From an uncultured Verrucomicrobia subdivision 3 bacterium (lineage in GTDB: Bacteria > Verrucomicrobiota > Verrucomicrobiia > Limisphaerales > UBA11358): a stretch of DNA of 64,000 bases. Numbering within the stretch: position 1 is the first letter of the stretch; each line of letters opens with the position of its first letter. The DNA lies in the NCBI GenBank assembly GCA_903917705.1, contig CAIXBQ010000148.1:1-64000 (forward strand), given 5' to 3'. The notes below the pieces were generated by a model. That model had not been told where the DNA came from. It did no database searches and was given only the letters and a program-made list of their open reading frames with translations. The translations under genes were made by a program, and so were the position numbers. Of the stretch, positions 9,361 to 61,181 are shown one piece after another.

Positions 9361-9600
9361 CATTTTCCATCAGCGGACGCCGTTTTCCGTCAGCGGACGC
9401 CGATTTCCGTCAACGGACGCCGATTTCCAACGGAAAGCGCCGTTTTCCAGCGGAATTCGCGGATTTCCAACGGAACACGCCGATTTCCACCAGCATTCGC
9501 CGTTTTCCAACGGAACACGGCGTTTTCCAGCGGCATACGGCGATTTCCAACGGAAAACGCGGTTTTCCAGCAGAAAATGGCGATTTCCAGCGGGTCGGAT
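9361..9600 (+). repeat. Twelve tandem 20-bp units
   Basis: Twelve units of exactly 20 bases fill 9361-9600. The consensus is close to CGATTTCCAACGGAACACGC. Position 3 alternates between A and T (CGATTTCC/CGTTTTCC) and the middle is CAGCGGA, AACGGAA or AGCGGAA. Because 20 is not a multiple of three, each frame sees a 20-residue period, and long frames stay open on both strands. These apparent proteins (GDFQRKTRFSSRKW-like) are artefacts of the repeat. The array sits between the convergent PAP2 and acyltransferase genes. Bases 9241-9360 hold nothing I recognise. Confidence 0.9.
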
Positions 9601-26098: not shown

Positions 26099-26111
26099 AA
26101 ATATCCTGCCA

Positions 26112-26156
26112 AATTGGAGCTGACCCGTTGCATTGTCTACCCATCAAACTCCAATT
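26112..26156. repeat. Inverted repeat sharing the TTGGAGCT box
   Basis: AATTGGAG (26112-26119) and CTCCAATT (26149-26156) form an 8-bp inverted repeat with a 29-base loop. The left part, AAATTGGAGCTGA (26111-26123), is identical over 13 bases to one box of the palindrome array at 28634. The same element therefore occurs on both sides of the beta-helix gene (26221-28224). Confidence 0.5.
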
Positions 26157-26220: not shown

Positions 26221-28224
26221 TTATGCCGCAGGCTTTGCCTTGGCCAACTGTTTCCAGGCGCGCTCACCATAAACCCCCGCCTGCTTCGGATCGAACCTAT
26301 GAAAACCAACCGCGGCTGCCGGTGAACGCCGGGGCAGGGTCACATCCGGCCAGACCCCGAGGAGGAATTGACCGTCCGTCAGGATGGAGCCGGCTTCGTG
26401 GCCGGCCTGCTGCCACGACGAAAGATCGCCGGTGGGAAAAAGTTTACCCGCCCGGCCGCTGACAACGAAGCAATTGCTCCGGCTCTCGAATTGAATCTGG
26501 CTCCACGGCCCGGTGAAGAAATCGGCATTGGAACTGATGATGAGGTTGTGTTCGAGCGTGAAGGAAAGATGGTTTTCCACCCGCGTCGCCTGCATGGGCG
26601 GGCCCGAGCTGAGGGCGAAGATGTTGTTCGCGATGTAATTCGTCGCCCCGTAATGCTGGTGAAACGCGCCGCCCGTTCGGGGCGCCACGCAGGTGCAGTT
26701 CCATACCAGATTGCTTTCGATCCGCCAGCCGGTGCTGCCTTCATCCGGGTAAATCCCCCAGCCGCCGTAATCATGGGCGCGCACCTCGTAAAAGACGTTG
26801 CCCACGCACGCGCTGCCGGGACTGACGCCCAGTGTGTAAATGCCGCCGAGATCGCTCAACACCCCCTGTCCGATCTGATGCACGCGGTTGAACGCGATTA
26901 GATTCGTCCGCGCCAGGCTCGGGCCATAGCCCCAGGTCCAGCCCACCGAGATGCCCGTGTAAAACGTGTCGCTGATGTCATTGTGCGTGACGCGATTGTC
27001 CGGACTCTGCCCGATCCACACCCCGACCGCGCTGGGATGCACCCGCCCGCAGCCGCGGATGATGTTGTTATCCACAATAATTCCGTCCGTGGCCCGGCCC
27101 GCATCATAGCGGATGTCCGGCTCGCCGATGCGAACGCCCCCCGCTCCCAGATCTGCCAGCAAAGAATGCTCCAGGCGGCAGTCGTGGCACCGATGCCGGA
27201 ACCAGATGCCGTAAGTGCCGGTATGTGCAATCTCGCAATCATCAAAAGTCACCCCGCTCGCGCCATCCAGCTCGATCGCCGCGCCCTGCTTCGCCGCCGC
27301 CTGAACGGGCGGACAACCTGCCGCCGGCATTTGATAACCGGCATGCTGAAAGCGCAGCCCCTGGAAATGGATCCCGGCCGCGTCGCGAATCTCGAGGATG
27401 CGCCCGACCATGGGCGCAACGATTTCCGGCGCGCGCTCACCCGGTCGCGGCCGATAACTCACTTCTCCCGCCGCGCCGAGAAACCAGCTGCCGGGCTGCG
27501 ACAAACCCGTCCGGATGTTTTCGAGGATGAACCGGCTTTGCGTGTTCCACGGATTCCACGGCTTCATCTGCTCCCCCTCGACGGTGAGGGTGCCCGCCGC
27601 CGCATCCACCGAAGCCACCGCATACCGGCTCGTATCCCATTTGTGAAGGACCAGCAACTGCACATCCGCCAGCGCCACCCCGCCGGCCGCCGTCAGCGCG
27701 GCGAGGGCCGCCGCCGGAACCCCGATGGTGATGCGCGCCCGATCATTGGGCAGCTTATCCTCCTTCACACTGGTGATGTTGAAATAACCTTCCAGCGGCG
27801 CCCGGGCGCGAATGGCCCGCCGACCATTGACATAAAGCTGTTCAAAGCGAAGGTCCGTCACGGCGCGCCAGAGTCCATTCTGGTCCGGCGTGAACCGTTG
27901 GATGCAAGTTCCGCCGCTGATAAGCGTCTTTGCAGAATCACGCGCCATCCAAATCTCCTTGCCATCCGGCGCAGCCAGCACCAGGGGTTCAGTCAGCGAA
28001 TACACCCCGGGCGCAAGCCGGATCGTCGCCGGCTCCGCCGAATGCCCCGCCGCGCGCCAGGCGCGGACCGCTTCGCGGGCAGCCATGAGCGTGTTGGTTC
28101 CGGGGACAGCCTCAAAAATCGTCGTTTTGGGCTGGGCAAGGCGATATCCCTGCGCGCTGGCCGGCATTCCGGCCAAGGCCATCGTCAGAACCAGCGGCAC
28201 CAGCGCGGCGGCCACGGCCGGCAT
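26221..28224 (-). CDS. Secreted right-handed beta-helix protein
   Basis: A 667-residue exported protein. I chose the ATG at 28224, which gives a signal peptide (PAVAAALVPLVLTMALAGMPASAQG); the frame is open for another 109 codons upstream but these look non-coding. The N-terminal region (IRLAPGVYSLTEPLVLAAPDG) is the usual opening of pectate-lyase-like parallel beta-helices. Later repeats include GIHFQGLRFQHAG, GVTFDDCEIAHTGTYGIWF, and IIVDNNIIRGCG. Such proteins bind or cut polysaccharides, but no catalytic residues can be named. It is similar in design to the protein at 29589. Confidence 0.8.
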   Translation of the reverse strand: MPAVAAALVPLVLTMALAGMPASAQGYRLAQPKTTIFEAVPGTNTLMAAREAVRAWRAAGHSAEPATIRLAPGVYSLTEPLVLAAPDGKEIWMARDSAKTLISGGTCIQRFTPDQNGLWRAVTDLRFEQLYVNGRRAIRARAPLEGYFNITSVKEDKLPNDRARITIGVPAAALAALTAAGGVALADVQLLVLHKWDTSRYAVASVDAAAGTLTVEGEQMKPWNPWNTQSRFILENIRTGLSQPGSWFLGAAGEVSYRPRPGERAPEIVAPMVGRILEIRDAAGIHFQGLRFQHAGYQMPAAGCPPVQAAAKQGAAIELDGASGVTFDDCEIAHTGTYGIWFRHRCHDCRLEHSLLADLGAGGVRIGEPDIRYDAGRATDGIIVDNNIIRGCGRVHPSAVGVWIGQSPDNRVTHNDISDTFYTGISVGWTWGYGPSLARTNLIAFNRVHQIGQGVLSDLGGIYTLGVSPGSACVGNVFYEVRAHDYGGWGIYPDEGSTGWRIESNLVWNCTCVAPRTGGAFHQHYGATNYIANNIFALSSGPPMQATRVENHLSFTLEHNLIISSNADFFTGPWSQIQFESRSNCFVVSGRAGKLFPTGDLSSWQQAGHEAGSILTDGQFLLGVWPDVTLPRRSPAAAVGFHRFDPKQAGVYGERAWKQLAKAKPAA

Positions 28225-28507
28225 GATCAACTTGAACAGGATTAACGAAATAAACCGAAGCCTGACCTGTAAATTTCTGACGGGCTGACGAAAATTAATC
28301 CATTTCACCCGTTCAGCCTCCTGCAATACGCGCGACCCGTCGAGTATAAACCCACAAGTTCTCGCCACGGTTCTCATCCATCCGCTTGACCGGCGGAACA
28401 CCCCGCCAACCAACGGAAAAGTCATGTGTTTAACCCCGGATGCGATGAGAGAAAATGCAAAACCATCGTGAATCATTTCGGATTTCACCCGGAACCAGAG
28501 AAAACTA

Positions 28508-28790
28508 TTGGCGCTAAATTTAAACCAGCTCCATGAAATCGCCGTCCGCACCTGTGTATTTCGATTTCATTTGGAGCTATTCGCGAATTAGCTCCAAACA
28601 ACCGGAAACAAACGTCGTGATTTTTCCGAAAAATTGGAGCTGATTCAATTTTAGCACCATAAAATCACCGGTCGAACACGTGCCAAAAGACTATGTTAGG
28701 AGCTATTTTGCTTTTAGCTCCATATGCCAGCTGTGGAACGTCGAGACATTTCAGTTTGTTTGGAGCTAAACCAAAAAAAGCTCCTTCAAT
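28508..28790. repeat. Five palindromes phased exactly every 63 bp
   Basis: Five 23-base palindromes of form GGAGCT-N11-AGCTCC lie in the 698-base gap between two divergent genes. Left boxes begin at 28510 (variant GGCGCT), 28573, 28636, 28699 and 28762. Right boxes begin at 28527, 28590, 28653 (variant AGCACC), 28716 and 28779. Every interval is exactly 63 bases. The 11-base loops all differ, while the arms are conserved, often extended to TTGGAGCTA/TAGCTCCA. The 40-base spacers share only scattered similarity. Arm conservation with fixed spacing suggests protein binding sites on one DNA face or repeated RNA hairpins. It is not coding. The rest of the gap (28225-28507, 28791-28922) shows nothing clear. 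Confidence 0.9.
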
Positions 28791-28922
28791 TTCCACGGAG
28801 TACAGCCATTCTCCGGGAATATAGATGGAAATATAAGTATCTCTTTGGCAAAACCGGGACTAAGGTGCGTTATTTCCCGCTGGAACGACGAAGTTTCCTG
28901 CCACAACCCGAAAGGATTAAAT

Positions 28923-29546
28923 ATGCAAACATTCAAACTGGATTTTCGCAACCGATCCGCCGCCGATCAGCTTCATATCTGTGAACATGCGGTGAGAAGC
29001 ATCACCCGGCTGAAGCCGGAAGAGCGGGGTGACGTGGAACTGGACAAATTGACCGCCACCGTTGCCGGTGTCCGCACCAGTTTTGACCGCGTAATCTGGC
29101 TGCGCTCCGAATTGAAGATGGAAATTGACCAGCGCGATGGCCGCTTGCGCGCCGCTCGCGCGCAGGTCACCAGCAGTTGCAGTTCGGTTTCATCGGCATT
29201 GAATTATGATCCCGCCGCCATGCTGGGCGCCGGCCTGGTTCTGCCCAAACCGCGTTCACCCGTGGGCCGGCCGGCGATGCCCGACGATTTCCGCGCCGAA
29301 CCGAGCGCCGTGGAGGGCGAAGCGCGGCTGCGCTGGCACCGCACCGTGCGCCGCTGCATGTTCGAGGTGGAATTGCGCCGGGATACCGACGGCGAAAGCG
29401 GCTGGAAACATTACGATGGCAATTTCCGCCAGAGCATGTTGGTGAAAGGGCTGGAATCCGGCATGAAATACTGGGTGCGTGTGCGCGCCATTAATGCCCA
29501 CGGCAAAAGCCCCTGGAGCCAGCCCGTGTCCGTGAGAGCCAAATAA
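28923..29546 (+). CDS. Fibronectin type III domain protein
   Basis: A 207-residue protein starting MQTFKLDFRNRSAADQ at the ATG at 28923, preceded by GAAAGGA nine bases upstream. The first 90 residues are helical (SITRLKPEERGDVELDKL). The C-terminal 90 residues form an FN3 domain: RRCMFEVELRRD, then YWVRVRAINAHGKSPWSQPVSV. No signal peptide is visible. Its layout, length and FN3 C-terminus parallel the protein at 59933, though the N-terminal halves differ. It lies 139 bases downstream of the phased palindromes. Function unknown; FN3 suggests binding to protein or carbohydrate. Confidence 0.75.
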   Translation: MQTFKLDFRNRSAADQLHICEHAVRSITRLKPEERGDVELDKLTATVAGVRTSFDRVIWLRSELKMEIDQRDGRLRAARAQVTSSCSSVSSALNYDPAAMLGAGLVLPKPRSPVGRPAMPDDFRAEPSAVEGEARLRWHRTVRRCMFEVELRRDTDGESGWKHYDGNFRQSMLVKGLESGMKYWVRVRAINAHGKSPWSQPVSVRAK

Positions 29547-60698: not shown

Positions 60699-61181
60699 AT
60701 GTTACGAATGTTCCGCATTAGCCATCCGCTTGATCTAATCCGTCATCCGATTCACAAGAAACAGCCGGTGCCCACCCGTAAGTGGCTGGTGCTTAACGGA
60801 ACCAACTATTTGCCAACGGCGGAAAACCATTTGGCAGGTCAAATTGACCAAGTGTTTCTTGTCATCACCCTTTTAAGTTGTTCAGCCGCCCTCAAACTTG
60901 GCCGAGACAATGACCCGCTTGATGGCGTCACAGACAAGCTTGCTCGCGTCACAGACAAGGATGACGTCATCACAGACAAGCTTGGTCGCGTCACTGACAA
61001 GGATGACGACGCCACAGACAAGCTTGCTCGCGCCACAGACAAGGATGACGGCATCAGAGACAAGCTTGACGGCGTTACTGACAAGGATAACGACGTCACA
61101 GACAAGCTTGACAGCGTCAGAGACAAGCTTGGCTGTATAAAAAGAGACAGTTGGAGACCGAAACGGGCCAAAAACCCATAA
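60699..61181 (+). CDS. Possible heptad-repeat protein
   Basis: A 160-residue frame. Its second half reads as heptads from the 21-bp repeat (TDKLARV, TDKDDVI, TDKLGRV...), a strongly charged coiled-coil-like pattern, with a hydrophobic segment (VFLVITLLSCSAALKLG) before it. There is no ribosome-binding site. At least three other frames are also open across the array because of the repeat, so openness alone is no evidence. I list it as doubtful. Confidence 0.28.
   Translation: MLRMFRISHPLDLIRHPIHKKQPVPTRKWLVLNGTNYLPTAENHLAGQIDQVFLVITLLSCSAALKLGRDNDPLDGVTDKLARVTDKDDVITDKLGRVTDKDDDATDKLARATDKDDGIRDKLDGVTDKDNDVTDKLDSVRDKLGCIKRDSWRPKRAKNP
60931..61140 (+). repeat. Ten tandem 21-bp units (alternating 42-bp pattern)
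   Basis: Ten 21-bp units fill 60931-61140. Nine begin CAGACAAG, CTGACAAG or GAGACAAG; odd units continue AAGCTTG and even units AAGGATGAC, so the real period is 42. The last unit is out of pattern. A poor unit precedes at 60910. Four of six frames are open. It matches the 1-kb array in unit length and alternation, not in sequence. Confidence 0.9.

Follow-up and report, generated by a model that had tools for sequence, protein, structure and literature searches.

The locus and its neighbours

The window, by which we mean the whole stretch of DNA that was analysed (64 kb), carries a row of five palindromes between a gene for a protein with a fibronectin type III (FN3) domain and a gene for a right-handed beta-helix protein. 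The features of the locus are the following:

26221–28224, minus strand: right-handed beta-helix gene, its start inferred from a signal-peptide-like N-terminus
28500–28800, no strand assigned: array on a 21-bp lattice containing the five sites, with a strong palindrome as each third 21-bp unit
28510–28532, no strand assigned: palindrome site 1, GGCGCT-N11-AGCTCC, left arm with one mismatch
28573–28595, no strand assigned: palindrome site 2, GGAGCT-N11-AGCTCC, exact
28636–28658, no strand assigned: palindrome site 3, GGAGCT-N11-AGCACC, right arm with one mismatch
28699–28721, no strand assigned: palindrome site 4, GGAGCT-N11-AGCTCC, exact
28762–28784, no strand assigned: palindrome site 5, GGAGCT-N11-AGCTCC, exact
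28923–29546, plus strand: FN3-domain gene, 207-aa protein with a helical N-terminal half and a C-terminal FN3 domain

An earlier sequence-only reading of this DNA had described five palindromes 63 bp apart between divergent genes, and we found them at all five positions, with every step exactly 63 bp (3 × 21) and the FN3-domain and beta-helix genes diverging on either side. Its statement that all sites read GGAGCT-N11-AGCTCC holds for sites 2, 4 and 5 but not for sites 1 and 3 with their single mismatches, while its observation that the arms are constant and the loops and spacers variable is correct across the five sites. It had understood the 63 bp as about six helical turns; the common helix face stands, but the division into 3 × 21 and the wider class of 21-bp arrays had been overlooked. 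A half-copy of the box reported at 26111–26123 did not hold up, as the GGAGCT at 26117–26122 is one of 33 in the window and does not fall on the lattice (its distance of 2456 bp to the site at 28573 is not a multiple of 21), and is thus ascribed to chance.

When at most one mismatch is allowed in the 12 fixed bases, the five sites are the sole matches in the 64-kb window, and with two mismatches there are 7 matches against 2.4 expected. The genome-wide search that the same reading had proposed gave one further match to the exact pattern in the genome bin, at a single, GC-rich place. The array itself has a GC content of 42%, compared with 60% for the window. Scans for sigma-70 promoters and terminators gave no signal exceeding that of shuffled sequences, and the sole match of the Rfam covariance models at gathering score in the whole window is a tRNA.

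The FN3-domain gene starts 139 bp downstream of the array and the likely start of the beta-helix gene is about 280 bp from it. In the FN3 protein the domain is recognized by PF00041 (E 9e-9), and residues 116–207 of the model superimpose on FN3 domains from the PDB with Z up to 15.7 and an rmsd of 1.4 over 90 aligned residues, while the N-terminal half is helical with a long helix at 40–92. No signal peptide was seen in this protein. It was also considered as the DNA-binding protein itself and set aside, with no DNA-binding family among its Pfam and NCBIfam matches, although the Foldseek and VIA match lists are dominated by the FN3 half, so that the helical half is barely covered. A search of phage records for the protein gave none, and its matches to PHROG tail proteins are due to the FN3 domain alone.

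Homologous arrays and the 21-bp rule

A search within the same genus for two neighbouring sites, with mismatches allowed, detected the palindrome array in 3 of 24 other species. The arrays detected in this search have a fuller palindrome, GTGGNGCTATTTNNNAAATAGCNCCAC, and steps of 63 and 84 bp. In this genus of Verrucomicrobia (subdivision 3), which occurs in lake metagenome bins of this subdivision, the palindrome lies upstream of the orthologous FN3-domain gene with steps of 63, 84 and 105 bp. For all FN3 loci scanned the steps, locus by locus, are 63 four times; 63, 63, 84; 84, 84, 63; 63 four times; and 105, 84. At one of these loci, on contig 193 of G007, the arms are altered to GGNTCTA...TAGANCC and the 63-bp step is retained. 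A second, paralogous FN3 lineage in the same genomes has a different palindrome, TTATGGCAATAAA-N5-TTTATTGCCATAA, of which two copies are 189, 231 and 210 bp apart, corresponding to 9, 11 and 10 × 21; at a fourth locus of this lineage (L040) one recognizable copy is left. All centre-to-centre distances of true sites of both palindromes are multiples of 21, and an apparent distance of 19 bp in L041 was dismissed as chance, the match involved agreeing at 17 of 26 positions and overlapping a true site.

The spacers also hold this register when the arrays are set out in rows of 21. The pooled autocorrelation of 14 loci reaches z values of 24 at lag 63, 18 at lag 21, 17 at lag 126, 15 at lags 42 and 84 and 11 at lag 105, with neighbouring lags at about 0–3 and the usual lag 1 as the other identity peak. 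The sequence-only reading had named drifting spacing in relatives as the observation that would count against it, and the opposite was seen, with the palindrome kept and the spacing shifting by whole 21-bp steps, that is by two helical turns, which supports its placement of the sites on one face of the helix.

Palindromes I and II were found almost solely at their own FN3 genes. A scan of the phylum with the strict arms gave no match in 387 genomes, mostly because the pattern is confined to one lineage, and AACGNCGTT showed no enrichment as a free-standing genomic site (4 occurrences versus 11 for the reversed control).

Linkage to an FN3 gene family

All 11 close FN3 homologues, the window gene included, have an array of 21-bp period upstream, the other 10 being 38–47% identical to the window gene. 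The same is true for nearly all distant homologues, both those of 24–30% identity from further species of the genus and members in other families:

L033–L037, L043, L044, L046, L161, L166, L173 and L094: distant FN3 loci with an upstream array
L092: distant FN3 locus, upstream array with a 22-bp period
L045: distant FN3 locus, weak array
L171: distant FN3 locus, array absent

At L160 and L169 the upstream region is interrupted by contig ends. At the array density of the own genome, a locus would have an array within 600 bp by chance with an estimated probability of about 0.02. Some arrays have no FN3 gene nearby. The beta-helix gene is not kept as a neighbour, and the proposed tie between the array and genes for exported proteins has to be replaced by one to the FN3-domain family, the steady neighbour, in which no signal peptide was seen. 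In L044, L034 and L161 a conserved short frame (YDTPGLTYDSGALYDD...) precedes the distant FN3 gene and reaches its start.

A wider class of palindromic arrays

A scan for periods of 14–30 bp against a triplet-corrected background, covering about 350 kb from the own genome and some 200 kb from relatives, yielded 21-bp arrays and a single 20-bp array but nothing else. The own genome has about 7 arrays per 366 kb, G017 has 6 per 326 kb and G029, from another family of the same order, has 4 per 150 kb, all of them lower bounds as arrays seem to break assemblies. No array was found in the parts of G001, G022 and G035 that were sampled. Sampling of 313 kb from other families of the order gave one array and of 264 kb from elsewhere in the class and phylum none, so the distribution is clade-limited and patchy. 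Stretches of this class occur in certain lake and groundwater bacteria, most consistently just upstream of the genes of one FN3 family.

Arrays of unrelated sequence have in common the step, the dyad symmetry of the unit and a profile of A/T and G/C. Self-complementarity of the 21-bp consensus exceeds that of column shuffles in 38 of 41 arrays (pooled z 22.6); the three exceptions are the one at 60918 in the window and L087 and L118, both probably coded repeats. The 20-bp array (p 0.01) and the 22-bp array (p 0.0005) are palindromic too, while repeats of other periods from the same scan (12–18 or 27, a coded pentapeptide repeat among them) are not. The odd period of 21 gives each array a single integer-centred dyad, and with 39 arrays aligned on it weak bases prevail at ±3 to 6 and ±8 to 9 and strong bases at ±1, 7 and 10. 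This profile has a variance of 0.0162, whereas random centres never exceeded 0.0031 (0 of 2000) and shuffled columns with a newly chosen dyad gave no more than 0.0037, and the profiles of FN3-linked and unlinked arrays correlate with r = 0.83. A faint consensus CnnGnAAACGnCGTTTnCnnG is common to the FN3-linked arrays, and arm sequences vary from array to array within one genome. Arm pairing compared with permuted arms shows an excess at dyad 1, in a test that mixes unit types and takes the best phase and that we therefore do not count as evidence of covariation.

Several individual arrays were noted in the course of this survey. At 126–280 in the window a second 21-bp array with a 42-bp superunit and a palindromic consensus lies about 500 bp upstream of a glutamate-synthase-like gene, and the palindromic 20-bp array (TTTCC..GGAAA, ACGCCG) lies at 9364–9593 between phosphatase-like and acyltransferase-like genes and is not coding, its period not being a multiple of 3. 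The 21-bp repeat at 60918–61128 has CAAG|CTTG boundaries and falls within a possible 160-aa frame (TDKL/TDKD repeats), its palindromicity not being significant. In G029 two 21-bp palindromes alternate in a 42-bp superunit (L121 10881–11160 and L124).

Array turnover between close relatives

G003 and G017 are syntenic, with an identity of about 90%. An orthologous array in this pair differs by 36 substitutions and no indels over 474 bp, with gap counts in the alignments of the two genomes too few to make the absence of indels significant alone. Arms are changed at 3 of 64 positions and the remainder at 33 of 410, 7 of the substitutions being at dyad centres; taken by itself, this deficit is suggestive rather than decisive for arm conservation.

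The genes flanking this shared array differ on both sides between the two genomes. G017 has a 1.17-kb stretch of array plus gene that is absent from G003, and likewise a 4.2-kb island (L070 9104–13304, G017:C25) with an FN3 gene, an array and genes for a membrane protein, a radical SAM protein and a methyltransferase, situated between RodZ-like and FtsK genes. Target duplications, terminal repeats and a recombinase were not seen at the junctions of these G017-only stretches. Most G017 arrays that were sought in G003 have no orthologue at the corresponding place. Two G017 arrays at contig ends (L103 18880–19106 and L104 19756–19967) are 96% identical to each other.

Interpretation of the array

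Sequence tests favour an action of the array at the level of DNA and not via RNA or protein. Evenly spaced RNA hairpins in a transcribed leader of the FN3 gene, an alternative already raised in the sequence-only reading, appear improbable to us: folding beats shuffles on both strands (z −6.8 and −5.4), as for any array of palindromes, but the minimum-energy folds join different sites across the array instead of folding each site on itself, none of the Rfam families matched the array and A-form RNA leaves a step of two B-DNA turns unexplained. Selected hairpins should also give an excess of G-T mismatches, whereas the arms on the FN3 sense strand have 147 G-T and 149 A-C and hence no strand preference. 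A translated repeat, in which 21 bp would encode seven codons of a heptad protein, is hardly credible, as most arrays have stops in all frames (in the window array and three related ones, in all six), the substitutions between G003 and G017 are distributed over codon positions as 15/11/10, periods of 20 and 22 bp occur and the coded pentapeptide repeat is not palindromic; the divisibility of 21 by 3, L005 and L010 with their long open frames and the array in G026 (L087 2794–3020, on a contig shared with L159) speak for it. The latter is in frame with a C-terminal FN3 half and replaces the usual N-terminal half, possibly as an intergenic array that has become coding sequence. That the arrays mark places where genes are exchanged or recombine, next to accessory genes, would suit the differing neighbours and the two stretches present in one genome only, but these cases are few and their junctions bear none of the marks looked for, and we regard this as very improbable.

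Our best explanation, to which we assign a probability of roughly 0.4, is that the array is a cis-acting row of dyad-symmetric sites for a dimeric protein on a 21-bp lattice, most likely controlling the FN3 gene. Conserved palindromes, whole-turn spacing and the place upstream of one gene lead to this reading, and half-sites fit better than hairpins since a degenerate arm base needs no partner (by an eye count it is independent of the partner base). A dimer would bind each palindrome, the lattice of two turns would place the bound dimers on one face, able to touch or to loop and so presumably to cooperate, and their binding would regulate the FN3 gene 139 bp downstream. In between the strong palindromes, the weaker 21-bp units could act as secondary sites or as DNA that wraps easily. 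Shape may carry part of the signal, given that arms vary while step, symmetry and A/T profile persist, and new units are probably supplied by a repeat-amplification process. What was directly observed comprises the sites themselves, the lattice of the homologous arrays, their dyad symmetry and linkage to the FN3 family, conserved arms in one orthologous pair and the absence of a coding or sense-RNA signal. Against operators, palindromes I and II are nearly restricted to their own FN3 genes, which makes an odd one-gene regulon, and similar arrays also occur with no FN3 gene near; moreover, arms differ within one genome, so that a single sequence-specific protein cannot serve all arrays.

A rival reading is structural DNA, with the arrays as stretches prone to wrap or bend that are read by shape, e.g. 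by an abundant nucleoid protein or a gene silencer, and only some palindromes as specific operators. The profile common to unrelated arrays and to FN3-linked and other arrays alike, as well as the palindromic periods of 20, 21 and 22 bp, all near two turns, point in this direction, but shape alone does not demand the sequence conservation of palindromes I and II across species, and A/T shows no dominant simple 10.5-bp periodicity, a 7-bp harmonic being equally strong. We consider this explanation unlikely. Similarly unlikely is a self-amplifying repeat whose 21-bp palindromic units, of no use to the cell, spread and are homogenized through slippage or hairpin-mediated copying. Runs of identical units in L071, L094 and L117, the several arrays at contig ends with the 96% identical pair and the G017 arrays missing from G003 agree with it, yet neutral repeats should drift from register whereas widely diverged arrays hold exact multiples of 21, and the linkage to one family and the conserved arms point to selection. 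We likewise consider unlikely an inheritance of geometry and not of sequence, with 21-bp dyad units of a common A/T-G/C profile and a machinery that tolerates almost any arms, coupled to the FN3 family.

Comparison with known systems

The lac, gal and ara operators and MetJ boxes are tandem or looping operators in helical phase. The array resembles them in having dyad-symmetric sites near a promoter at whole-turn spacing and differs in having 4–5 sites at 63–105 bp or 2 at 189–231 bp, always in multiples of 21, with weak dyad units at every 21-bp step. Plasmid iterons, direct repeats of 17–22 bp in steps of about 22 bp upstream of rep, share the direct repetition, the two-turn step and the place upstream of one gene. 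Unlike iterons, the arrays are on chromosomal-looking contigs, with many per genome and palindromic units, and iterons were rejected since no replication initiator adjoins, the neighbours being the FN3 and beta-helix genes. CRISPR arrays, too, consist of partial palindromes that are evenly spaced and separated by differing spacers. The sequence-only reading had excluded them in favour of operators, and we agree: the repeats are non-identical, only the arms recur around variable centres, 21-bp units are present and homologous steps jump between 63, 84 and 105 bp. REP/BIME elements are dispersed hairpins of 20–40 bp, often dimers, with a GTAG or CGTC tag, and are present in the PVC superphylum (PMC3733652). 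They are short extragenic palindromes as well but lack a 21-bp lattice (PMC3733652); at our locus no GTAG or CGTC tag recurs at the five sites, and the exact palindrome is confined to the array bar the one GC-rich match. Intergenic heptamer and minisatellite repeats of bacteria are tandem and have no known function (PMC6344855), yet these are repeats of sequence, whereas here step and symmetry outlast sequence divergence.

Among phased operators, iterons, REPs and minisatellites, the features that define membership fit the phased operator geometry alone: a symmetric consensus, steps of 21 × n in all homologous arrays and a place upstream of a gene. We therefore describe the array as a candidate phased operator array of unusual form and give a new class the smaller chance. 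In the open-access literature we found no description of 21-bp palindromic arrays or of their link to FN3 genes. A spacing rule that outlasts sequence turnover would be rare evidence of selection on DNA geometry itself in bacteria. The arrays also offer a handle on a large, uncharacterized FN3 gene family, and as genome-wide markers that are gained and lost between close relatives they could make the responsible protein findable by genome comparison. Other dispersed short repeats at L113 1087–1291 and L099 474–582, with many copies in G003, are unrelated to the 21-bp arrays.
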